Origin: Brachybacterium massiliense
Lineage (GTDB): Bacteria > Actinomycetota > Actinomycetes > Actinomycetales > Dermabacteraceae
NCBI RefSeq assembly: GCF_900184245.1
Contig: NZ_FXXB01000008.1
Location: 1,340,146-1,404,145 of the forward strand
DNA length: 64,000 nucleotides
Reading direction: 5' to 3'
The translations under genes and the position numbers were made by a program. Of the stretch, positions 23,675-35,289 are shown piece by piece. The notes beneath the pieces are model-generated. The model ran no database searches, was not told where the DNA came from, and saw only the letters and a list, made by a program, of their open reading frames with translations. Each line of letters opens with the position of its first letter. Within the stretch, counting starts at the first letter, position 1.

Positions 23675-25879
23675 TCAGCCGCGGGCGGTGAACTGCTCGC
23701 CGTGGAAGGTGCGCCCGAGGGTGCGCGGGGAGGCGCCGGAGGCATCGAGGTACGGCGTGATGCCGCCGCGGTGACGGGGGAACCCGGCGCCGAGGATCAG
23801 CGCGAGGTCCACCTGCTCGGGCCGCTCGACCACGCCCGTCTCGAGCATCAGCGCGATCTCCTCGGCCAGTCCGTCCTGGACGGTCTCCAGCAGCGCGTCG
23901 CCGACGGGCGCCTCGGCGCCGCCGCTCGCGCCGGTGCCGAACACCTCGGCGACGGTGGGCGAGACCGGCGGGTGCACCGCGGACTTGCTGCGCTCGGTGA
24001 AGCGCGCCTTCCTCTCCGCCATCGCGGACAGGCCCGGGGAGGCGTGGAAGCGGTCGCCGAGCTCCTCGACCAGCACCGTGCCCACGTGATCGGCGACGGC
24101 CAGCCCCACCAGGTCCAGCAGGGCGAAGGGCCGCATCGGCATGCCCAGCGGGTCGAGCGAGGCGTCCACCTCGGCCGGGTCCGCGCCGGCGTCGACCGAG
24201 GCGAGCACCGCGCCGAGCACCCGGAACAGCAGACGGTTGACGATGAAGCCGGGAGCGTCGGCGCTGCGCACCGCGAACTTCCGCAGCCGGCGCACCACCT
24301 CGAGGCCGGTGGCGAGGGTGGTCTCGTCGGTGGCCTCGGTGTGGATCACCTCGACCAGCGGCATCTTCGCGACCGGGTTGAAGAAGTGCAGGCCCACCAC
24401 TCGCTCGGGGTGGGCGAGGTCCTCCGCCATCCTCGTCACCGAGAGGGAGGAGGTGTTGGTGACCAGCAGGGCATCCTGCTCCAGCACGCTCTCGAGCTCG
24501 GCGAAGACGGACTTCTTGATCGCCAGCACCTCGGGGACGGCCTCGAGCACGAGGTCGCAGCCGGCGAGCTCCTGCAGGTCCGTGGTCGCGGAGAGGTTCC
24601 CGGCCACCGCGGTGGCGGTGGCCTCGTCGAGTCGGCCGCGGGCGGCGGCCTGGGCGATCACGTCGCGCGCGGCGCCCAGGCCCTTGGCGGCGATGTCCTC
24701 GTCGAGGTCGCGCATCACCACCGGGACCTGCAGGCCCAGCGCGAGCTGCGCGGCGATCTGGGAGGCCATCAGCCCGGCGCCGGCCACGCCCACCCGGCGG
24801 ATCTCGCGGGCGCCGTCCACCGGGGTGCGGCCGGGCTTGCCGCGACGCAGCAGCTCGGCGGAGTACATCGAGCCGGCCGCGGCGTCGCTGCGCACGAGGT
24901 CCTCAAGCGCGGCGGCCTCGCGGGCGAGGGCCTCCTCGAGGGTGGAGCCGGGCAGGTCCTGCAGCAGCGCGAGGGCGCGGGCGGCGGCGGGCGCGCCCTG
25001 CGTCTCCAGTCGCGCCGTCCAGGTGCGGCGGGTCTCGGCGTGGCCGTGGGCGGCATCGAGCGCATCCAGCAGCGCCTCGGCCTCGGGGGTGCCTGCGGCG
25101 GGCACCGGGGCGGTGCGTCCGCCCCAGGCGCCGTCGGCCGCGAGCGCGCCGGAGGGCACGGACTCGGCGAGCGCGGGATCCACCACGTCGGCGTCGGCCT
25201 CATCGAGGTCGACGTGCGCGGCGACCAGGGCGGCGAACTCGTCGAGCGCCTCGTCGAGATCGGCGGCGAGCTCGTCGACCAGGCCGATCTCGAGGGCCTG
25301 CTCGGCGCTGAGCTGCGTGTCGCGCGCGGGATCCTCGAGGATCATCCGCACGGCGGTCTCGGCGCCGACGACGGACTGCAGCAGGGTGGTCCCGCCCCAG
25401 CCGGGCAGGATCCCCAGGCCCGTCTCGGGCAGGCCGAGCCCGCGCACGCCCGCGGCGGCGGTGCGCACGTCGGCCATCAGCGCGACCTCGAGGCCGCCGC
25501 CGAGCGCGACGCCGTTGAGGTGGGCGAGCACGGGGACGGGGCTGGTGCGCACGCGCACCTGCATGTCATGGGCCTGGCGGGTCAAGCTCTCGACGCTCGC
25601 GGCGGCGGTGGGATCGGCGAACATCGACAGGTCGGCGCCGGCGAGGAAGACGCGGCCGGTGCCGGTCATCGCGATGGCCTGGATCTCCCCGGCCTCGGCA
25701 CGGTCCAGCGCGGCGCCGAGCGCCCCGGTGACGGCCTCGATCGACTGCGGGCCGAGTGTCGCGGGGCGGCGCTCCTCGCCCTCCGGCGGGGCGAAGGTCA
25801 GCACTGCCACCGTGCCCAGCCCGGGGTGCTCTCGATCCTCGGCGAGGACTCGGGTGACGTGCTCGGTGTAGCTGCTCAT
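23675..25879 (-). CDS. fadB: FadB-type bifunctional enoyl-CoA hydratase/3-hydroxyacyl-CoA dehydrogenase
   Basis: 734 aa. The N-terminal crotonase domain (1-~200, oxyanion region FLAGADLSMF and GVALGGGLEVALMADVR) carries out enoyl-CoA hydration. A Rossmann domain begins near 360 with VGVAGAGLMASQIA, and the HAD signature VGLHFFNPVAKMPLVEVI follows near 500; two C-terminal dehydrogenase domains end the protein. It converts enoyl-CoA to 3-ketoacyl-CoA in fatty acid beta-oxidation. The ATG at 25879 is preceded by GAAAGG and fits the domain edge; a start 48 bp upstream is unlikely. The thiolase partner is not adjacent but at 34-35 kb, and both upstream regions share a similar inverted-repeat-like site. 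Confidence 0.93.
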   Translation of the reverse strand: MSSYTEHVTRVLAEDREHPGLGTVAVLTFAPPEGEERRPATLGPQSIEAVTGALGAALDRAEAGEIQAIAMTGTGRVFLAGADLSMFADPTAAASVESLTRQAHDMQVRVRTSPVPVLAHLNGVALGGGLEVALMADVRTAAAGVRGLGLPETGLGILPGWGGTTLLQSVVGAETAVRMILEDPARDTQLSAEQALEIGLVDELAADLDEALDEFAALVAAHVDLDEADADVVDPALAESVPSGALAADGAWGGRTAPVPAAGTPEAEALLDALDAAHGHAETRRTWTARLETQGAPAAARALALLQDLPGSTLEEALAREAAALEDLVRSDAAAGSMYSAELLRRGKPGRTPVDGAREIRRVGVAGAGLMASQIAAQLALGLQVPVVMRDLDEDIAAKGLGAARDVIAQAAARGRLDEATATAVAGNLSATTDLQELAGCDLVLEAVPEVLAIKKSVFAELESVLEQDALLVTNTSSLSVTRMAEDLAHPERVVGLHFFNPVAKMPLVEVIHTEATDETTLATGLEVVRRLRKFAVRSADAPGFIVNRLLFRVLGAVLASVDAGADPAEVDASLDPLGMPMRPFALLDLVGLAVADHVGTVLVEELGDRFHASPGLSAMAERKARFTERSKSAVHPPVSPTVAEVFGTGASGGAEAPVGDALLETVQDGLAEEIALMLETGVVERPEQVDLALILGAGFPRHRGGITPYLDASGASPRTLGRTFHGEQFTARG

Positions 25880-25933
25880 CAGTGACCTTTCGCGATCTCT
25901 TCGTCGAGGGCAGGCGACTCCCCGCACAGTTGT

Positions 25934-25952
25934 CTGATACCGGGGGTTTCAG
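25934..25952. promoter_or_regulatory. Candidate fatty-acid operator upstream of fadB
   Basis: CTGATACCGGGGGTTTCAG, an inverted repeat with 7 of 8 arm positions paired, 55 bp before the fadB start. A similar site (13 of 19 positions identical) occurs at 35271-35289 before the thiolase gene. Confidence 0.5.
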
Positions 25953-26035
25953 GTAGATCATGCCTCACATCGGCACAGGGTGTCCACCGCGCCCGCCTCG
26001 CAGCCTGCGCCGCAGCCCCCACCGTTCCGGGGCGC

Positions 26036-26821
26036 TCAGGGCATCTCGATCCAGGCGCCCTCCTCGAGCTCCTGCCCGGCGTCGATGAGGACGAAGTGAC
26101 CGCCGCGGCCGACGTCGTCGGACATCTCGATCACGAGCTCGGAGACGAACTCCTCCCCCGGATCGGCGCCGACCTGCTCGATGTCCTCGTCATGGCGCGG
26201 GGTGACCACGTAGACCTGTCGGTGGATGGTGTCCTCCGGGCCCACGTAGGCGCACTGGATCCATGCGGCGTAGCCGCCGTCGAAGGGGGTCTCGCCGTGG
26301 TGGACGCCCTCGAGCGTGAACATCACGTACCGCCGGCCCTCGCCGGGCTCCGCGGTGAAGGAGTTCGCGTCCAGGATCTCCTGGGTCGCGTCCCAGTCCA
26401 CCGCGGTCACGGCCACTTCGACCTCCGCCTCGACCTTGGCCGGCTGCAGCGGGAAGGAGGCGCCGAAGGGGACGGCCTGCTCGCGTCCCACCGGGATGTC
26501 CGCAAGAGGCTCGCCCGTCGGCGGGGCGGCGTCCTCGGTGCTCTGCTCGGCCGGCTCGTCGTCGGCGCCCTCGGCCTCGCCGCCGGACCCCGAGCGCTCT
26601 GCGGGCTCCGACTCCCCGGCCGAGGCGGGGCTCTCGTGCTCACCGGCCACCGGGGCGCCGCCGTCGTCCTGCAGCGCCCGGACGCCGAAGAAGCCGCCCA
26701 CGCCGAGCAGCAGGCCCGCGATCACGGACAGGCAGCCGACGGCGGCATAGAAGCCGGTGCGCGGCCGACGCTCGGGCAGCCGCTGGGTGGGGGCGGTCAG
26801 GCGCGTGGTGCGGTGGTCCAT
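26036..26821 (-). CDS. Single-span membrane protein with extracellular domain
   Basis: 261 aa. A short basic cytosolic N-terminus, one span at about 25-50 (AAVGCLSVIAGLLLGVGGFFGV), an acidic low-complexity linker (SAGESEPAERSGSGGEAEGADDEPAEQ) and an extracellular beta-rich domain (RRYVMFTLEGVHHGETPFDGGYAAWIQC...GGHFVLIDAGQ). Overall plan equals that of DUF4352-type proteins. It forms a pair with the next gene downstream of the same plan. Function unknown; possibly an envelope or stress-sensing protein. Confidence 0.7.
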   Translation of the reverse strand: MDHRTTRLTAPTQRLPERRPRTGFYAAVGCLSVIAGLLLGVGGFFGVRALQDDGGAPVAGEHESPASAGESEPAERSGSGGEAEGADDEPAEQSTEDAAPPTGEPLADIPVGREQAVPFGASFPLQPAKVEAEVEVAVTAVDWDATQEILDANSFTAEPGEGRRYVMFTLEGVHHGETPFDGGYAAWIQCAYVGPEDTIHRQVYVVTPRHDEDIEQVGADPGEEFVSELVIEMSDDVGRGGHFVLIDAGQELEEGAWIEMP

Positions 26822-26914
26822 CGCGGCGCGGTGGTCCCTTCTCCTCGTACGGGCACAGCGTGCGGCGGCACGGCCGCGGCCTGCGGGTCACGCTAGCGCA
26901 CCCGGGCGGCGGCC

Positions 26915-27739
26915 TCAGGTGCCGACGTAGAGGATCTCCCCGGTGTAGGTCTCCACCCCCAGGCGGAAGGACTCGATCTCGGTCTCGGGGACCAGGAAGG
27001 CGCTGCGGAAGGTCGCGCTGCGTCCGCTCTCGAGCGGGCTGATCGCCGTCATCGGGTCGGGGACGAGGCCCTCGCCGATGTCCGGGAAGTAGCTGCGCTC
27101 TGATTCTCCGGTGAGCCAGAGTTCCTCGGCGGGGGCGAGCTGACCTGGCCCGTCGTAGCGCACCTCGTAGGTCGCCAGCACCAGGCGGTAGCCGTCCTGG
27201 AGGAGGGTCTCCTCCTGGGCGGCGGGGGCGGTGGCGTCGAGGTCCACCTCGAGCGCGGTGACCGAGATGGTGCCGTCGGTCCAGGTGCTCCAGCTGAGGG
27301 TGTGCTCGCCGGGGGCGGCGGGCTGCTCGAAGCCGCCGGTGCCGTCGGAGATCTCGCGCCCCGACTGGTCGGTGACGGTGCCGGGCTCACGCTCCGGGGA
27401 GGCGCTCTGATCCGGTGCGGTCGCCTGCACGGTGGTGGTCGCGACGGGCTCGGGGGAATGCCCGAGCCGCTGCAGGCCGCCCATCACCAGGGCGACGGTG
27501 GCGACCAGGGCGGTCGCCTGGACCAGGACGATCGCGACGATCGCCCAGGCGGGCAGCGCGCCCCGTCGGCCCGCGAGCGGATCCGGCGCGGTGGGCTCCG
27601 GCGCGGTGGGGCCGACGCGATCGCCGCCGCCGCGGGGCTGCTCGCCCGCGCGTTCGGGCATGACGAGGAGCTCCGGCTCGGAGGGGACGGTGTGCTCCTC
27701 CCACTCGTAGCCGGTGGGAGACTCCCGACCCTGCGCCAT
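26915..27739 (-). CDS. Single-span membrane protein with extracellular domain
   Basis: 274 aa. Cytosolic acidic/Pro-rich N-terminus, one span at about 63-87 (LPAWAIVAIVLVQATALVATVALVM), a Pro/Ser/Glu linker, then an extracellular beta-sandwich-like domain with YRLVLATYEVRYDG and ATFRSAFLVPE, as in DUF4352 proteins. ATG 27739 lies seven bases after TATGCT without a Shine-Dalgarno, so it is probably leaderless; an ATG 12 bp upstream overlaps that box and is less likely. It precedes the similar gene at 26036-26821. Confidence 0.7.
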   Translation of the reverse strand: MAQGRESPTGYEWEEHTVPSEPELLVMPERAGEQPRGGGDRVGPTAPEPTAPDPLAGRRGALPAWAIVAIVLVQATALVATVALVMGGLQRLGHSPEPVATTTVQATAPDQSASPEREPGTVTDQSGREISDGTGGFEQPAAPGEHTLSWSTWTDGTISVTALEVDLDATAPAAQEETLLQDGYRLVLATYEVRYDGPGQLAPAEELWLTGESERSYFPDIGEGLVPDPMTAISPLESGRSATFRSAFLVPETEIESFRLGVETYTGEILYVGT

Positions 27740-27746
27740 GGGTACG

Positions 27747-27752
27747 AGCATA
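27747..27752 (-). promoter_or_regulatory. -10 box of membrane protein gene
   Basis: TATGCT on the minus strand, seven bases before the ATG at 27739; near-consensus hexamer and leaderless spacing. Confidence 0.6.
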
Positions 27753-27849
27753 GGGCGCTGCGCCAGCGTCCCAGCACCGGGTCGCTGCGCGCCCCGTGAC
27801 AGTGCGGCGGCTAGGCCGTACGGTGGAGCGAGCCCGACGAGAGGATGCG

Positions 27850-28308
27850 ATGCACGCCCCGGACCGGACCACCCCGACAGACCACACCGGCCCCGCAGGC
27901 CGCACCGACCAGCGGGCGCATCGGGTACCGGCGCGGACCCACCTGCTCGGCGCCGTGCTCTACACCGTCGGGGTCTGCGGGATTCTCGGGGGCTTCCCCT
28001 CGCCCCTGGCCGAACTGGGGCTCGGGCTCGGGGCCCTGCTCCTGGCGATCGGGACGATCATCGTCTCCCGCGCCCAGCTCCATCACCACGGACGCACCAC
28101 CTCCTATCCCGTGATCGGCGGCCCCCGCTCCCTGCTCACCGCCTGGATCGCGGCAGGACCGCTCCTGTTCCTCTTCCTGCTCCCCGCCGCCACGCCGATG
28201 CGCGTGCCCGTTCTCCTCGCGCTCCTGCTCGGCACGGTCTTCTACGCGGTGTTCCGCCTCCAGGACGCCGACCTCAGCGCGGCAGCCTCAGCCGCTTCGT
28301 CCCGGTAG
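27850..28308 (+). CDS. Small multi-span membrane protein
   Basis: 152 aa. After ~30 hydrophilic residues rich in Asp/Thr/Pro it has about four hydrophobic segments (~33-52, 55-72, ~97-113, 115-135). No known family is recognised. The ATG at 27850 is preceded by GAGAGGATG, and a TACGGT box lies at 27819-27824. It is divergent from the gene at 27739 and 36 bp ahead of the cysteine desulfhydrase gene. Function unknown. Confidence 0.65.
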   Translation: MHAPDRTTPTDHTGPAGRTDQRAHRVPARTHLLGAVLYTVGVCGILGGFPSPLAELGLGLGALLLAIGTIIVSRAQLHHHGRTTSYPVIGGPRSLLTAWIAAGPLLFLFLLPAATPMRVPVLLALLLGTVFYAVFRLQDADLSAAASAASSR

Positions 28309-28332
28309 GGCGAGCCGGGACGCACCACCCGC

Positions 28333-28338
28333 TACGGT
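28333..28338 (+). promoter_or_regulatory. -10 box of the Cds1 gene
   Basis: TACGGT six bases before ATG 28345, with no Shine-Dalgarno between; leaderless arrangement. Confidence 0.5.
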
Positions 28339-28344
28339 CATCCC

Positions 28345-29460
28345 ATGGATCACAGCACGGCATGGCCGCAGCGGCTCGAGGACGTGGACCGCAGCGATGA
28401 TGCGCTGCGGGCCTGGGTGGCGGAGCGGATCCGCCGGCTGGAGGCCGACGGGCGGCGCAGCGCCGACACGCACCTGGTGAGCGTCGACCTGCCGCCGGAG
28501 TGGGACATCCAGCTGTACCTCAAGGACGAGTCCACCCACGCCTCGGGCAGCCTGAAGCATCGTCTGGCACGGTCGCTGTTCCTGTTCGCGCTGGTCAACG
28601 GTCAGCTCCGCCCCGGGATGCCGGTGATCGAGGCGTCCTCGGGCTCGACGGCCGTGAGCGAGGCGCACGTGGCGCGGATGCTGGGCATCCCCTTCGTCGC
28701 GGTGATCCCCCGCGGCACCAGCTCCCGCAAGATCGCCCTGATCGAGGCGGCGGGCGGGCACTGCCACGTGGTCGAGGGCGCGGAGTCGATGAGCCGGGAG
28801 GCGCAGCGCCTGGCCGAGGAGCGCGGCGGACTGTTCCTGGACCAGTTCACCCACGCCGAGCGCGCCACGGACTGGCGGGGCAACAACTCGATCGCCGTCA
28901 GCGCCCTGTCCCAGCTCGAGCTCGAACCGCATCCGGTGCCGCGCTGGATCGTCGTCGGCGCCGGCACGGGAGGCACCAGCGCGACCTTCGGGCGCCTGCT
29001 GCGCTACCGCAGCCTGCGCACCTCGCTGTGCGTCGCCGACGTCGAGAACTCGGCGTTCTTCGAGGGCTGGGTGCGGCAGGACCCGCACCACACCACCGAC
29101 CGGGGCTCGCGCATCGAGGGGATCGGTCGCCCGCAGGTCGAGCCGAGCTTCGTGCCCGGGGTGGTGGACCGGATGATCCGGGTGCCCGACGCCGCCTCGG
29201 TCGCCGCCGCACGATACCTCTCGGAGCACCTGGGCCGGCGCGTCGGCGCCTCGACCGGCACCAACCTGGTGGCCGCCGCGCAGCTGATCGCACAGATGCG
29301 CGAGCGCGGCGAGAGCGGCTCGGTGCTGACCCTGCTGTGCGATCCGGGCGATCGCTACGCGGACACCTACTTCGACGACGACTGGGTCGCCTCGCAGGGC
29401 TGGGAGCTGGGCCCCTGGCGCGAGGCGCTCGAGCGGATGCTCCCGCTCGGACGGCGCTGA
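28345..29460 (+). CDS. cds1: PLP-dependent cysteine desulfhydrase, Cds1 type
   Basis: 371 aa, fold-type II PLP enzyme. The PLP lysine is K71 in [27 protein letters not shown] (~96-109) binds the substrate carboxylate, [15 protein letters not shown] (~214) the PLP phosphate. The domain order and the [11 protein letters not shown]-terminus match the mycobacterial Cds1 group, which releases H2S, pyruvate and ammonium from L-cysteine. A cysteine synthase activity is the alternative reading of the family. The gene is monocistronic, with its own TACGGT box at leaderless spacing. Confidence 0.85.
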
Positions 29461-29485
29461 GCCCGCCGGGCGTCGACGGCTCTGG

Positions 29486-29857
29486 TCACTCCGCTCCCCC
29501 GGGGGTCGGCTCGCCCCGCCAGATCAGCCCCACATGCCCGCGCGCCGAGGACGGCGTCTCCGGCCCGTCGACCCCCGGGTCCTGGGGCCTCACCTCGACC
29601 ACGTGGAGCAGGCCGTGCGGACCGAGGTCGAGCCGATCCCCCGCCGTGACGTCGTGAGTGCTCGTGGACTCGGGGAGCGTCACGTGCAGCCGCGCGCGAG
29701 CCCGCCGCCGGCCCGTCGCCGGATCCGCTGCCGTCCGAGCGCTCATCACCCCGATCCGGGCCGGTCCGAGCCGGGCCTGCGTGCTCTGCAGGATCAGAGC
29801 CTCGACGGCCCCGTCCTCGGCCGGCACCACCAGGGTGCGTCTGCGTGCGTCGGTCAT
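29486..29857 (-). CDS. Hypothetical protein, partner of the WXG100-calpain gene
   Basis: 123 aa, soluble, beta-rich looking (RTLVVPAEDGAVEALILQ, ARARLHVTLPESTS, GPHGLLHVVEVRPQ). No signal peptide, membrane span or recognised domain. The ATG at 29857 overlaps the stop of the protease-like gene as ATGA and GGAGG lies upstream, so it is translationally coupled to it. The position would suit an immunity protein, chaperone or secretion partner. That is inference from arrangement only. Confidence 0.65.
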   Translation of the reverse strand: MTDARRRTLVVPAEDGAVEALILQSTQARLGPARIGVMSARTAADPATGRRRARARLHVTLPESTSTHDVTAGDRLDLGPHGLLHVVEVRPQDPGVDGPETPSSARGHVGLIWRGEPTPGGAE

Positions 29858-30990
29858 CTCTCCTCCACCCACTGGTCCCTCGGCGGTGCCACGTACACCG
29901 AGTCGATGTTCGCCATGATCTGCTCGGGCGTCAGATGCGGTGCCCGATCGCCGTTGCCCCCGGTGTAGTCGCTTCCTGCGCCCCACGGGTTCTCGAGATG
30001 GATGGTGGACCCGTTCGCCCCCGCCACCAGGTAGGCATGGTTCTCCACGAGCGAGACACCCTCCCGGTCCGCGTCGCTGTTCTCGGTGCCCAGGACGACG
30101 GTGTAGCCCTGGTCCTGCAGCGCTTCGATCGCCCGCGCATCGAGCGTCCTCCCGGACCCGAAGCTCTCGATGTCCCATCCGAGCCCCGTGCCCGAGACGG
30201 GGTCCTGCAGGATCTGCAGGTCCTGCGGCATCGGCACACCGGTGACGGCCTCGACCACGGTGCCGGCAGAGCCCGCGTAGGTGCCGTCCTCCTCGAGCAC
30301 GCCGTGCTGGACGAGCGCGGCCTCGTAGAGCGTCATCCAGTTCTGCAGCCCGTCCGAGCCGCGCGCGCCGTTGTTGATGACCTCGCCGTCGACCGTGACC
30401 GTTACCGGCTTCCCGTCCTGGTACAGGGTGACCTCGTAGTGCTCCGGACCGATCTGCTCGATGCGGTCCATGAAGTACTGCGGATCCTGCTCCGAGAGAC
30501 CGCCGAGCATGGCGATCGTGATGCAGTTCGGGACCCCCTCCTGGTTCATCGAGGCGATCCCGTACTCCGCAGGGTCGTCGATCGGAATGTCGTCGCGCAG
30601 GTTCCGCCTGCCGGTGAACGGGTTGAGACCGCCGTCGAAGCCGAAGAAGCCGTTGTGCCAGCCGATCCAGGCGAAGCCGGTGTCGTCGTACTCGGCGGCG
30701 CCGTCCTCCGCGATGCCGGCGGGACCGCCCTCGACGGCGGAGGCCCGCTCCTGCGCCTGCGCGTGCTCGTCGAGCTCGTCGCCGCGCACGGCGAGCGCCT
30801 CGAGAGTCGACCGCCACTGGGCGCTGACCCCCTGCCAGCGCGTGCGGAGCTGCTCGGCGTCCTCGCCCACCCAGGTCACCGTGCGCACGGCGCTGTCGAG
30901 CGCGTCATGCAGCTGGGCTGCACGCCGTCCCTCCTCGCGCGTCCTCACAGCCAGCTGCTCCAGCTGTTCGGTCCGTGCTCCCCAGAACAT
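29854..30990 (-). CDS. WXG100-like domain fused to calpain-like cysteine protease
   Basis: 378 aa without a signal peptide. Residues 1-88 form a predicted helical hairpin with a central WVG (W40-G42) and flanking LRTRW, as in WXG100/ESX substrates. Residues ~105-370 carry a calpain (C2)-like pattern: Cys156 in GVPNCITIAMLGGL, His318 in ENHAYLVAG and Asn334 in ENPWG, in the right order and spacing for the catalytic triad. An NWMTLYEAALVQ helix (217-228) matches the calpain core. Start ATG 30990 lies after GGGGGA at close range. A likely secreted effector or toxin of a type VII-like route; no secretion genes are in the window. A small gene overlaps its stop by four bases. Confidence 0.75.
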   Translation of the reverse strand: MFWGARTEQLEQLAVRTREEGRRAAQLHDALDSAVRTVTWVGEDAEQLRTRWQGVSAQWRSTLEALAVRGDELDEHAQAQERASAVEGGPAGIAEDGAAEYDDTGFAWIGWHNGFFGFDGGLNPFTGRRNLRDDIPIDDPAEYGIASMNQEGVPNCITIAMLGGLSEQDPQYFMDRIEQIGPEHYEVTLYQDGKPVTVTVDGEVINNGARGSDGLQNWMTLYEAALVQHGVLEEDGTYAGSAGTVVEAVTGVPMPQDLQILQDPVSGTGLGWDIESFGSGRTLDARAIEALQDQGYTVVLGTENSDADREGVSLVENHAYLVAGANGSTIHLENPWGAGSDYTGGNGDRAPHLTPEQIMANIDSVYVAPPRDQWVEER

Positions 30991-31321
30991 CCCGTCCCCC
31001 CGTCGTCTCGATAGGGGAACCCTAGGAGAGGGAGCACCGCCTGACCATGGGGAGCACTCCCCAGTGAGAGCTCCCCGGTGAGAGCTCGCGGGAGAGCTCT
31101 CCGGGCGGACACGATCTTCGTCGGCATGGCCCACAACCCGCTGGTCGAGCAGTGGTGCGAAGCGCTCGTGGCACGCGGCCCCCGCCTGCACATGCACCGG
31201 CCCCGGCATCTGGGCGCGCCCCTGTGACGGCCCGCTCGGGGCGTTGGTCCCGCGCCCCGGGAGATCCGCGCGGAAGGATCGACCTGACCTGCACCGACCC
31301 GTATGACGTGGAGTGGACCCG
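30991..31321. other. Intergenic region between the calpain-like and ABM genes
   Basis: 331 bp without a supported gene. It holds the promoter for the calpain-like gene. Short direct repeats of GTGAGAGCTC and GAGAGCTC lie between 31065 and 31105. A 33-codon frame at 31125-31226 has no recognisable relative. Nothing else is visible. Confidence 0.4.
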
Positions 31322-31605
31322 ATGACCGTCGTCAAGATCAACCGCCTGGCCGTTCCCGAGGGGAAGCACGAGGAGCTCGAGAAGCGCTTCGCGCAGCGCA
31401 AGCACTCGGTGGACCAGGCTCCCGGCTTCGAAGGCTTCGAGCTGCTGCGCCCGGTCGGGGAGGGGAGCAGTACTTCGTGGTGACACGCTGGGCCGACGAC
31501 GAGAGCTTCCGCGCCTGGGCTGCGCAGCGCTCGCCCCGCGACCCGTCCCAGACCGTCTCGCCCGCCGAGGGGATCCTCGAGTTCGAGGTCGTGGACCTGG
31601 ACTGA
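31322..31605 (+). pseudogene. Antibiotic biosynthesis monooxygenase (ABM) family, frameshifted
   Basis: The first part (ATG 31322, MTVVKINRLAVPEGKHEE...FELLRPVG) and the second part (EQYFVVTRWADDESFRAW...FEVVDLD, stop 31605) are the two halves of one ~95-aa ABM ferredoxin-like domain but lie in different frames. The first frame stops at 31483. One missing base in the G-rich run at about 31456-31466 (CGGGGAGGGGA) would restore it. Intact relatives are small dimeric monooxygenases or IsdG/HtrA-like haem-degrading enzymes. Either a real inactivating mutation, a programmed or phase-variable slip, or a sequencing error. Confidence 0.8.
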
Positions 31606-31623
31606 GGTCGCGTCACGAAGGAC

Positions 31624-31658
31624 GGCGCGCGACTCCTCCTCGTGAGGGGTCGCGCGCC
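31624..31658. terminator. Bidirectional terminator
   Basis: Stem GGCGCGCGAC (31624-31633) with GTCGCGCGCC (31649-31658), extended inward by further pairs to a 5-nt loop, followed on the right by a pyrimidine-rich stretch. It lies between the convergent ABM and lipoprotein genes. Confidence 0.8.
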
Positions 31659-31704
31659 ATCTCTTCTCGGCAGGCCTCAGCGGCCGCGTCGCACCGGGGT
31701 CGGC

Positions 31705-32523
31705 TCAGCCCTGGGGCAGACGGGTGAACAGGTAGCAGGCGCGGTCGCCGTCGAACCCGCTCTGGGCGGTGGCGTACCAGGTGCCGTCGCCGTCCTCATC
31801 GGGCGTGCCGGTCACCTCGCACGTCCCGTGCTCGCCGCCGTCGGCGACCTCGCACTCGGCGGTCAGATCTGCCGGCAGCTCACCATCGTGGCTGTGGCCC
31901 ATCATCACTGCGGAGGTCACGTCCTCCGCGAGGTCCTCGTCGGTGACCTGTGAGAGGTCGTTCTCGGCAGTCACCTGGAGCGCGTGCTCCGCACCGGGGG
32001 CGACGGGCAGGTCGGGGGCACCCTGGCCGCTCACGCCGAACAGCATCGCGGTGCCGTCGAAGCCGGTGGAGACCATCCGCACCTGCGCGGTCCGGGTCGT
32101 ATCGCTCCCGTCCATGGCGGCGAAGGTGCAGGTCGCGGCGGAGCCGTCGAGCTCGGCCGTGCCCTCGCAGGTCGCGCCGGTGCCGGCGAGGAACTCGGTG
32201 CCCTCGATCCCCTCGGCGCTCATGGCGGTGACGGGCTGGCTGCCGTGCAGGGTCAGCATCGCGAGGTAGGCGGAGGCGTCCTCCGGGGCGAAGCGCTGCG
32301 TGGAGACGGTGCCGGACCAGTCCTGGGGCAGAGCCCCCTCGGCAGGGGCGGAGTCCTCGCCGCCCGTCGCACGGGCCTGCACCTCACCTCCTGCAGAGCG
32401 TTCGCCGGAGGCGGATGGGCCGTGCAGAGCGGGGCCGGTGCCGCACCCTGCGGCGAGCACCGCCACCGCACCGATCGTGAGGAGCTGTGCGCCGTAGCGG
32501 CGAACCCTGGTGGACAAGGCCAT
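31705..32523 (-). CDS. Putative lipoprotein of unknown function
   Basis: 272 aa. Signal peptide (residues 1-27, RVRRYGAQLLTIGAVAVLAAGC) with a clear lipobox ending in C27. A Gly/Ser/Ala linker follows, then a secreted domain with two Cys pairs (GATCEGTAELDGSAATC and AECEVADGGEHGTC) that could form disulfides. The ATG at 32523 has AAGGAGGG upstream, which decides the start. No domain is recognised. Its upstream region includes a TAAAGT hexamer usable as -10. Confidence 0.75.
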   Translation of the reverse strand: MALSTRVRRYGAQLLTIGAVAVLAAGCGTGPALHGPSASGERSAGGEVQARATGGEDSAPAEGALPQDWSGTVSTQRFAPEDASAYLAMLTLHGSQPVTAMSAEGIEGTEFLAGTGATCEGTAELDGSAATCTFAAMDGSDTTRTAQVRMVSTGFDGTAMLFGVSGQGAPDLPVAPGAEHALQVTAENDLSQVTDEDLAEDVTSAVMMGHSHDGELPADLTAECEVADGGEHGTCEVTGTPDEDGDGTWYATAQSGFDGDRACYLFTRLPQG

Positions 32524-32656
32524 GGGAGCGTCCCTCCTTGCTGGACAGCAGCCACCGAACGATGACCACACCACGGACTTTACGATCTCTTGACCGTTGT
32601 GCGCACGCTTCTTTGCAAGGTCTCCTCAAGCGTGTCGCGGCGGCCTTCCGCGGCGC

Positions 32657-33979
32657 TCACGCGAACGCGCTGACCCCGGTGATCGAGCGGCCCACGATGA
32701 GCGACTGCATGGTGTCGGTGCCCTCGTAAGTGTGCAGCGCCTCGATGTCGCTGCGGTGGCGCACCACCCGGTTCTCGAGCAGGATCCCCGAGCCGCCCAG
32801 CAGGTCACGGGCGTTCGAGGCGATCTCGCGGGCGGCGCGGGTGTTGTGCACCTTGGCGAGGGAGGCCTGCTCGGGCCGGATGCTGCCCGCCGCCTCGAGC
32901 TGGGCCAGGCGCAGGCAGTACAGCTGCATCGCGGTGAGGGTCTGCAGCATGTCGCTGAGCCGCACCTGCACGTGCTGGGCCTTGGCCAGCGGCCGGCCGA
33001 ACTGGATCCGGGTCCGGGCGTGCTCAAGGGCCGCCTCGTAGCAGGCGGTCGCGTGGCCCAGGGCGCCCCAGGCCACGCCGGCGCGGGTGGCGAACAGGAC
33101 CTTCGAGGTGTCCTTGAAGGACCGGGCGCCGGGCAAGCGCTGGTCCAGGGGGATCCGCACGTCGGTGAGGGTGACGTGGGCCTGATGGATGGCGCGCAGC
33201 GCGACCTTGCCGCGGATCACCTCGGCTCGGTAGCCGGGCAGCGACTGGTCCACGAGGAAGCCGGAGACCTGCCCGTGCAGCTCGGGCTGGGAGTCGTCGT
33301 CCACCCGCGCCCAGACCACGGAGAGGTGGCAGCCGGCGCCGTTGCCGATCCAGCGCTTCTCGCCCGAGAGCACCCAGCTGTCCCCGTCGCGCCGGGCGAC
33401 GGTCTCCAGGGAGACGGAGTCGGAGCCGTGATCAGGCTCGGTGAGCGCGAAGGCGGCGAGCTCGGAGCCGCTCGCGAGCGGCTCGGCCCAGCGCTGCTTC
33501 TGCTCCTCGGAGCCCAGCAGCATGATCGAGCGCAGGGCGAGGCCGCCCTGGACGCCCACCATGGTGCCGACGCTGCCGTCGAGACGGGACAGCTCCATGT
33601 TCACCAGGCCCGTCGCGAGCGGGGAGAGGGTGCGCCGGCCGGGCACGTCGAGCCCGTCGGTGAGCAGGTCGAGCTCGCCGAGGCGGGCAATCAGCTCGAT
33701 CGGGTACTCGCCGCGGTCCCACCAGTCGTTGATCTGCGGGAGCACCTCGTCGGCGAGCGAGCGGGCGTCGGCCCAGGCGCGCAGGTCCTCGCCGGCGACG
33801 TCCTGGAACAGGGCGAGATGGTCGGCGGCGGTGGGGAGCAGCTCGGCCGGCGCGGCGGCGGTGGCATCGGGCGGGGAGACCACGGCGCGGCCTGTGACCA
33901 CGGAGTCGCGGCGCTCCTGGCCGCCGGGGTCGATGGTGCCGCCGAGGGAGATCTGTCCGGGGTCGTTGCTGATGGTCAT
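32657..33979 (-). CDS. Acyl-CoA dehydrogenase (glutaryl-CoA dehydrogenase-like)
   Basis: 440 aa flavoenzyme of beta-oxidation-type reactions. The FAD/substrate regions LTEPDHGSDSVSLET (~178) and SGEKRWIGNG (~205) are present. The C-terminal YEGTDTMQSLIVGRSITG block contains the catalytic Glu in the same setting as in glutaryl-CoA dehydrogenase. The ATG at 33979 overlaps the thiolase stop (TGATG), so the two are coupled; a GTG three bases earlier is possible. The pair thus serves acyl-CoA or dicarboxylyl-CoA breakdown. The chain-length preference is not readable. Confidence 0.9.
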   Translation of the reverse strand: MTISNDPGQISLGGTIDPGGQERRDSVVTGRAVVSPPDATAAAPAELLPTAADHLALFQDVAGEDLRAWADARSLADEVLPQINDWWDRGEYPIELIARLGELDLLTDGLDVPGRRTLSPLATGLVNMELSRLDGSVGTMVGVQGGLALRSIMLLGSEEQKQRWAEPLASGSELAAFALTEPDHGSDSVSLETVARRDGDSWVLSGEKRWIGNGAGCHLSVVWARVDDDSQPELHGQVSGFLVDQSLPGYRAEVIRGKVALRAIHQAHVTLTDVRIPLDQRLPGARSFKDTSKVLFATRAGVAWGALGHATACYEAALEHARTRIQFGRPLAKAQHVQVRLSDMLQTLTAMQLYCLRLAQLEAAGSIRPEQASLAKVHNTRAAREIASNARDLLGGSGILLENRVVRHRSDIEALHTYEGTDTMQSLIVGRSITGVSAFA

Positions 33980-35196
33980 CACTTGATCCTCTCGATGATC
34001 AGGGCCATGCCCTGCCCGCCGCCGACGCAGAGGGTGGCCAGGCCGAAGCGGCCGTCGCGCTCGGCGAGGCCGTTGAGCAGGGTGGTGGTCATGCGGGCAC
34101 CGGTGGAGCCCCAGGGGTGGCCGAGCGCGATCGCTCCGCCGTGGACGTTGAGCCGGTCGTGGTCGATGCCGAGGTCCTCGGCGGCGGGGAGCACCTGCGC
34201 GGCGAAGGCCTCGTTGAACTCGACCAGGTCGATGTCCTCGATGGTCATGTCGGCGAGGGCGAGCGCCCTGCGGGTCGCCTCCACCGGGCCGAGGCCCATG
34301 ATCTCGGGGCTGAGGCCGGAGACGCCGGTGGCGACCACGCGGGCGAGCGGGGTGATGCCGAGCTCCTTCGCGTAGGTCGCCTCCATGATCACGAGCGCGG
34401 CGGCGCCGTCGTTGAGGGGGCAGCAGTTGCCGGCGGTGACGGTGCCCTCCGGGCGGAAGACGGGGTCCAGGGCGCTGACGGCCTCGAGGGTGACGCCGTC
34501 GCGCGGGGAGTCGTCACGGCTGATCACGGTGCCGTCGGGCAGGGTGACGGGGGTGATGTCGCGGTCGAAGAATCCGGACGCCTTCGCGGCCTCGGCGCGG
34601 TTCTGGGAGCGCACAGCGTACTCGTCCTGGGCCTGGCGGGTGATGCCGCGCAGCTCGGCGACGTTCTCGGCGGTCTGGCCCATGGCGATGTAGGCGTCGG
34701 GCAGCTCGCCGTCCTCGCGCGGATCGTGCCAGGGGGCGGGGATCTCGCGGGCGGCGCGCTTCTCGGTGCGCTCCCAGGCGGGCTGGAACAGCGGGTCGCG
34801 GGAGTCCTCCTCCATGAGCTTGCCGCTGCTGGAGGAGATCGACTCGACGCCCGCGGAGATCACGGCGCGGGCCTCGCCCGAGACGATCGCGTGGAAGGCG
34901 CTGCGGGTGGTCTCGATCGAGGAGGCGCAGAAGCGGGTGACGGTCGCGCCGGGCACGGAGTCCAGGCCCAGCCGCACCGCGACGGTGCGGGCGAGGTTGC
35001 CGCCCTGCTGACCCTCGGGGATCGCGCAGCCCAGCTGGAGATCGTCGATCGTGGTGGGGTCGAGCTGGGGCACCTGGTCCAGGGCCGCCTGGATCATCTG
35101 GCCCACGAGGTCGTCGGGGCGGAGGTCCTTGAGCGCCCCCTTGCGGGCGCGGCCGATGGGTGAGCGGGCGGTGGCGACGATGACGGCCTCGGGCAC
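33979..35196 (-). CDS. fadA: Acetyl-CoA C-acyltransferase (FadA-type thiolase)
   Basis: 405 aa degradative-type thiolase that cleaves 3-ketoacyl-CoA to acetyl-CoA and a shortened acyl-CoA. The nucleophile is C90 (TRFCASSIETTRSAFHAI). The His of GGAIALGHPWGSTGAR is near 360, and the second catalytic Cys is near 391 (TLCVGGGQGMAL). The GTG at 35196 has AAGGAG seven bases upstream, and the protein begins with the standard PEAVIVATARSPIG; the open frame further upstream is not coding. It is first in a two-gene operon with the acyl-CoA dehydrogenase. A -10 TAGTAT lies inside a site similar to the one upstream of fadB. Confidence 0.95.
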   Translation of the reverse strand: MPEAVIVATARSPIGRARKGALKDLRPDDLVGQMIQAALDQVPQLDPTTIDDLQLGCAIPEGQQGGNLARTVAVRLGLDSVPGATVTRFCASSIETTRSAFHAIVSGEARAVISAGVESISSSSGKLMEEDSRDPLFQPAWERTEKRAAREIPAPWHDPREDGELPDAYIAMGQTAENVAELRGITRQAQDEYAVRSQNRAEAAKASGFFDRDITPVTLPDGTVISRDDSPRDGVTLEAVSALDPVFRPEGTVTAGNCCPLNDGAAALVIMEATYAKELGITPLARVVATGVSGLSPEIMGLGPVEATRRALALADMTIEDIDLVEFNEAFAAQVLPAAEDLGIDHDRLNVHGGAIALGHPWGSTGARMTTTLLNGLAERDGRFGLATLCVGGGQGMALIIERIK

Positions 35197-35270
35197 GTGG
35201 AATCTCCTTCGACGGCGGTGTCTGCGGGGGCGGTCCGCCGGGACCGCGCGATGCACGATACCGGACGTTC

Positions 35271-35289
35271 CTGATACTACGGGTTGCAC
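35271..35289. promoter_or_regulatory. Candidate fatty-acid operator and -10 of the thiolase operon
   Basis: CTGATACTACGGGTTGCAC, sharing CTGATAC, the central GGGTT and CA with the site before fadB. The minus-strand -10 hexamer TAGTAT (35279-35274) is embedded in it, as expected for a repressor site. A further GATACCGG half site lies at 35258-35265. Confidence 0.5.

Follow-up and report, generated by a model that had tools for sequence, protein, structure and literature searches.

A WXG100-type/calpain-type fusion protein and its candidate inhibitor encoded by overlapping genes in Brachybacterium massiliense

The window, which is the whole 64,000-nucleotide stretch of Brachybacterium massiliense DNA that was analysed, was found to contain two overlapping genes. 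The first (P0001) encodes an N-terminal WXG100-type helical hairpin followed by a calpain-type (C2) peptidase core, and the second (P0002) encodes a small partner protein. P0001 is probably a type VII-exported protease of the polymorphic-toxin type and P0002 its dedicated inhibitor or immunity protein. The partner gene was found to be linked to C2 toxin genes and to diverge together with the C2 core, and paralogues with the same N-terminal module (N-module) and other C-termini were present.

Organization of the gene pair

Both reading frames were found to be open in the window (Table 1). Their ends and strand, the four-base overlap and the positions of W40-V-G42, C156, H318 and N334 in P0001 agreed with the original prediction when the ORF coordinates were rechecked. 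A GGAGGAG sequence was present immediately upstream of the P0002 start, within the P0001 gene, and the two proteins are predicted to be encoded on one message.

Table 1. Positions in the window of the two genes and of their domains and predicted catalytic codons
Feature	Position	Strand	Remark
P0001, 378-aa WXG100-type/calpain (C2) fusion	29854..30990	minus	ATG at 30990, stop at 29854
WXG100-type helical hairpin of P0001, N-terminal, residues 1-92	30715..30990	minus	
W40-V-G42 of P0001	30865-30873	minus	
Calpain-type peptidase core of P0001, residues 116-373	29872..30645	minus	
C156 codon, predicted catalytic	30523..30525	minus	C in 27/27 covering rows
H318 codon, predicted catalytic	30037..30039	minus	H in 28/28 covering rows
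N334 codon, predicted catalytic	29989..29991	minus	N in 28/28 covering rows
P0002, 123-aa partner, predicted all beta, DUF6406-like	29486..29857	minus	ATG at 29857, stop at 29486
Stop/start overlap of P0001 and P0002, four bases	29854-29857	minus	ATGA

The hairpin and the calpain-type core

The predicted structure of P0001 (pLDDT 80.1) was found to contain a two-helix hairpin (residues 7-37 and 45-88), then a linker of low confidence (88-123) and finally a calpain-like core. Calpain cores made up all of the 20 Foldseek matches at E<=1e-3, and the Cys, His and Asn residues were found in the order typical of calpains, the oxyanion Gln being present as well. Residue conservation was counted in a 28-row alignment, using only the rows covering each position. 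The oxyanion residue Q150 was conserved in 26/26 rows, and C156, H318 and N334, instead of the poor conservation that would speak against a peptidase, were invariant (Table 1). Sequence evidence on its own makes P0001 a weak C2 case, as Pfam Peptidase_C2 (PF00648) matched it with E 0.0091 and 15.5 bits, below the cut-off of 23.8, and a PDB sequence search gave no informative match. The paralogue L001 of the same genome, aligning with P0001 residues 134-251 (E 2.8e-10), was found above this cut-off with 45.7 bits. The fold and the conserved residues together assign P0001 a calpain-type core, as had been claimed originally and as the structural comparison with calpain cores suggested then bore out, and the core is predicted to be proteolytic.

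The W40 and G42 residues were each conserved in 22/23 covering rows, the exception being the stand-alone C2 protein L002. The Pfam WXG100 model gave nothing at E<=1 against P0001; it matched the paralogue L003 with E 4.6e-4 and 20.8 bits, below its cut-off of 27.3, and the WXG100 protein of the type VII-like locus itself with E 0.0046. The originally proposed WXG100-type hairpin was upheld by the helix-WXG-helix model, by this conservation and by the homology described below. The L002 gene (G000:C3:687025-687543) was found beside a phosphofructokinase-like gene (by eye), with no partner observed, and similar C2 matches were present in many genomes of the genus.

The small partner protein

The predicted structure of P0002 was all beta (pLDDT 88.0) and thus not that of a small helical type VII partner. 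P0002 matched nothing at E<=1 in Pfam and NCBIfam, at E<=0.1 in PADLOC or at E<=5 among PDB sequences, in keeping with its first description as an unrecognised protein, and neither the calpain beta-sandwich domain nor staphostatin was present among the fold matches listed. P0002 is regarded here as a candidate calpain-family inhibitor or immunity protein.

The type VII-like locus and the N-module proteins

A type VII-like locus in the same genome was found to contain a PP2C-like gene (by eye), a 1488-aa EccC-like ATPase and several WXG100 proteins. The ATPase contained FHA and FtsK/SpoIIIE domains (FtsK_SpoIIIE E 1.8e-51) and reached 197 bits against the EccC model TIGR03925, whose cut-off is 346.55. 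The same model matched 38/38 genus genomes, above the cut-off in only three, and weak matches were also found in 8/14 control genomes, so the locus is called type VII-like by its layout and not by TIGR03925. The mycosin model matched this genome below its cut-off only, and 5/14 controls matched too.

An N-module HMM was built from 22 toxin N-module sequences, none of them from the type VII-like locus. It matched ORFs adjoining the EccC-like ATPase in all five fetched loci (L107 and L113-L116; gene lists were viewed for L107, L113, L114 and L116), with E 4.6e-19 at best to 3.1e-13 in L107, the locus of the window's own genome. The hairpin of P0001 was thereby found to be homologous to the WXG100 proteins of that locus. 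At L107:11044-12633 a WXG100 gene pair beside the ATPase gene was present twice in tandem, as also at L113:10794-12352, and the copies encode identical proteins except for the called start in L113.

P0001 was matched in 39/47 genomes of the family, and the matches listed covered mostly residues 2-95 and lay where longer frames begin. Nine genes outside the type VII locus, including that of the window, were matched by the N-module HMM in the fetched stretches of the own genome. They contained differing C-termini, three with C2 cores (window, L071 and L072) and others with a weak hydrolase match (L110) or a weak ApoL match (L109). Such a common N-module with differing C-termini in one genome is what a polymorphic toxin family would show. 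The type VII-like setting and the coupled partner gene of the originally claimed protease toxin were found, and export of the toxin is predicted.

Among the paralogues with C2 cores, L003/L072 (G000:C5) was found as a WXG-C2 gene in two separate open pieces, with genes for a small partner and for a lipoprotein beside it; the third, L001/L071 (G000:C1), was adjoined by a divergent lipoprotein gene only, with no small partner. The L109 protein contained a hydrophobic, glycine-rich C-terminus and was followed by a 274-aa gene downstream, the hydrolase match of L110 was of the alpha/beta type with a 257-aa gene upstream, and L112 contained two N-module genes near each other.

Partner and lipoprotein genes in the genus

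A C2 match was found in 33/38 genus genomes, so that calpain domains, held by the original prediction to be rare in bacteria, are not rare within this genus. In the genus stretches fetched for the neighbour survey 34 C2 genes were tabulated, 33 with an N-module match nearby. The small beta gene adjoined 24 of the 34 loci, as did a divergent lipoprotein family, and both were present at 15. One locus (L077) contained neither, followed by another lipoprotein-like gene downstream. The small gene was absent from ten loci, nine of which contained the divergent lipoprotein; although of another family, it may act as the actual immunity factor at those loci. The window contained the small gene only, and the divergent lipoprotein of other loci was not found in it, so P0002 would stand alone there.

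It is highly unlikely that the divergent lipoprotein is the real immunity protein, with P0002-type proteins accessory and the window pair decaying or domesticated. Its presence at 24 loci, including those nine, and the broken state of several paralogues would fit such a reading, but both window frames are open with a conserved triad, nine of the ten loci where the lipoprotein was not found contained the small gene (one of them, L082, ends at a contig edge), and the linkage of the partner persists outside the genus.

A small-protein profile of 23 rows, built from genes adjacent to C2 genes, gave 23 matches at E<=3.5e-15 in the 38 genus genomes, 22 of them adjoining C2 genes; the adjacency of its own 23 rows is given by construction, and the informative part is the absence of confident matches elsewhere in the genus. 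The single confident match away from a C2 gene (L146, G025:C13) was found beside a toxin remnant, a damaged WXG-C2 gene with no C2 match left, where the small gene and the lipoprotein persist. That both outlast the toxin is as expected of a protective gene. A weaker, broken copy of the small gene (L147 in G028, E 6.4e-6) was likewise found beside a damaged WXG-C2 gene. The single-sequence search with P0002 gave three weak genus matches away from C2 genes (G023, G034 and G018:C2, E 1.3e-4 to 0.01), which the profile search did not contain. The small gene therefore accompanies the toxin at most loci but not always; of the two kinds of solitary gene named beforehand as evidence against a pair, the toxin without the small gene was found at ten of the 34 loci and the small gene without a C2 gene once among the confident matches in the genus, beside the L146 remnant.

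In animal calpains a beta domain follows the core, and P0002 might play a comparable role as a separate regulatory subunit by which the protease is activated or kept stable. The all-beta prediction, the position next to the calpain core and the gene overlap would suit this role, as would the bacterial calpain homologues described as lacking calcium-binding sites in a part of PMC4631099; it is nonetheless quite improbable, since a regulatory subunit would be missing from the ten loci without the small gene, and the partner and lipoprotein left beside the L146 remnant fit protection better than activation.

Genes flanking the island on both sides were shared with G003, and one gene on one side with G018, which places P0001 and P0002 in a variable island. 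This island (window 23675-35289, L074 and L084) was found between conserved fatty-acid-metabolism-like genes (names by eye), with three N-module genes in the G003 stretch versus one in the window.

Related loci beyond the genus and DUF6406

Other genera of the order also contained WXG-C2 proteins matched by the fusion profile, and in three of these genera the partner recurred (L184-L188), with the small beta gene present after the C2 gene (profile E 2e-19 to 1e-11). A weaker match to the small beta gene was found at L194 (3.6e-8). Among the remaining WXG-C2 loci of the order, no partner was recognised at L189 and an apparent lipoprotein only was present at L190. In G217 and G336 of the same class, a C2 gene without an N-module match, whose N-terminus looked by eye to be of the membrane type, was followed by an apparent lipoprotein with the beta domain (E 1.6e-11 and 1.3e-10), present twice over by eye; G760 contained the same layout but without a profile match. 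In G588, G585, G136, G210 and G340 the C2 gene was followed by plain and apparent-lipoprotein copies. The evidence for this beta domain in the lipoprotein copy was strong for G210 and G136, fair for G340 and weak for G588 (E 7.6e-4) and G585. No partner was recognised for the large C2 proteins of family f25. At L193 (G548) the C2 gene was found with a 98-aa gene upstream and, downstream, a plain/lipoprotein pair of another, unnamed domain.

Both G210 copies were found above the cut-off of Pfam DUF6406 (PF19944), with 5e-10 and 5.4e-17. The same model gave nothing at E<=1 against P0002, which is therefore termed DUF6406-like and not a member. In a profile-profile comparison the P0002 family matched the comparison set A4 (eight rows, four above the DUF6406 cut-off) with Prob 94.4 and E 8.4e-8, scoring 45.1, while 60 shuffles reached no more than 11.2. 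The partner profile, searched class-wide in 394 genomes, gave two matches outside the genus, one of which was the DUF6406 protein of G167. A plain copy was found adjoining the C2 gene at L226, L235 and L238, which were reached via DUF6406. Only six of the 30 fetched DUF6406 loci contained a C2 gene in the stretch and 24 contained none, which makes the fold family wider than C2 inhibition alone. At C2-free sites (L227-L229, L231-L234 and similar) DUF6406 apparent lipoproteins recurred by leucyl-tRNA-synthetase-like and acyl-CoA-ligase-like genes, and DUF6406 proteins also by a SecA-like gene (all gene names by eye).

Co-divergence of the partner and the protease core

Distances were compared for 21 toxin-partner pairs with a Mantel test. 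The partner distances correlated with those of the C2 core at r=0.86 and of the N-module at r=0.80, with partial correlations of 0.59 and 0.38, respectively (Mantel p 0.001), and across 195 divergent pairs the values were 0.50 for the core versus 0.15 for the N-module. This tracking of the core, together with the C2 loci that carry the beta domain without a WXG module, argues that the partner serves the protease and not the export arm.

The same evidence bears on whether P0002, rather than being an inhibitor, acts as a secretion chaperone or adaptor and brings the fusion to the type VII exporter. Such a protein would suit the gene overlap, the small partners common beside type VII substrates (described in a part of PMC10765036) and the five loci with the small gene upstream of the toxin (L085, L086, L089, L094 and L098). 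However, the partner follows the C2 core more than the hairpin, related beta domains are present after C2 genes without the WXG module, P0002 is predicted all beta whereas the EsaD partners treated in that part of PMC10765036 are small and helical, and the lipoprotein copies would sit on the wrong side of the membrane. A chaperone is therefore unlikely, and of the two roles originally offered, immunity or chaperone, that of an inhibitor or immunity protein is favoured.

Discussion

We infer that the WXG100-type hairpin would take P0001 to the type VII-like exporter of the genome and that the C-terminal calpain-type cysteine peptidase would cause harm within or at the cell of a competitor. P0002, translated from a shared message by way of the stop/start overlap, would bind the protease core in the cytosol, keeping the producer safe before export, and would also neutralise this toxin when it comes in from kin. 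The beta domain of related loci, present also or instead as an apparent lipoprotein, may guard the outer face.

The fusion itself, thought at first to be possibly undescribed, is already known, as WXG100-calpain proteins of Herpetosiphon and Segniliparus with a WXG100 domain in a C2 peptidase homologue, like P0001, were reported by Rawlings 2015 (PMC4631099), where a reviewer considered them likely secreted T7SS toxins. In the accessible part of that paper no partner gene comparable to P0002 is discussed, and the Brachybacterium calpains named there are short and peptidase-only, unlike P0001. In the literature searched, WXG100 and calpain were found together in two papers, PMC4631099 and PMC13243786, and DUF6406 was named in no paper.

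The pair resembles polymorphic toxin systems in its common trafficking module, variable C-terminal toxin and adjacent small immunity gene (Zhang 2012, PMC3482391). The examined portion of that paper contains a suggested peptidase inhibitor (Imm35, with Tox-PL1) and a lipoprotein (Imm65) and does not mention calpain. The staphopain/staphostatin and Bacteroides fragilis C10 pairs likewise combine an exported cysteine protease with an inhibitor that is encoded next to it and co-transcribed, and two of three Bacteroides staphostatin-like inhibitors contain predicted lipoprotein signals, but these proteases belong to families C47 and C10 without a type VII hairpin, as far as covered by the available part of PMC2873492. 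Cpe1-Cpi1 likewise pairs a papain-like protease toxin, used between bacteria, with a cognate immunity protein of the inhibitor type; however, the toxin is a Gram-negative T6SS/CDI effector, and its core is likened to the ComA and LahT peptidases, not to calpain, in the text available of PMC12136450. TipC shows that the immunity protein of a type VII toxin can be located on the outer face of the membrane (a part of PMC6193138). DUF6406 proteins are profile-related to P0002 and occur as plain and apparent-lipoprotein copies by some C2 genes, but their model was not matched by P0002 and most of their fetched loci lack a C2 gene.

Within the scope of these searches, two things are new: that C2 toxins are linked to a DUF6406-like partner, and the two-compartment layout of that partner. 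We tentatively suggest, at somewhat less than even confidence, that Actinobacteria possess a dedicated DUF6406-like inhibitor family for calpain-type toxins, a functional counterpart of calpastatin, which would travel with the C2 core irrespective of the export module and which, as a plain copy in the cytosol, as a lipoprotein in the membrane or in both forms, would provide two-compartment self-protection.

Bacterial calpains are poorly understood; according to the part of Rawlings 2015 available (PMC4631099), if one reported preparation was a mixture, no bacterial calpain has been characterised biochemically. An expressible protease-inhibitor pair would make such characterisation testable and, if the proposal is true, would assign a role to those DUF6406-like proteins that are linked to C2 genes. 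The occurrence of a plain and a lipoprotein copy together suggests a way in which a producer could protect itself on either side of the membrane from the protease it exports, and the partner gene, probably a built-in safety catch, may explain how bacteria handle calpain-like proteases without self-digestion.
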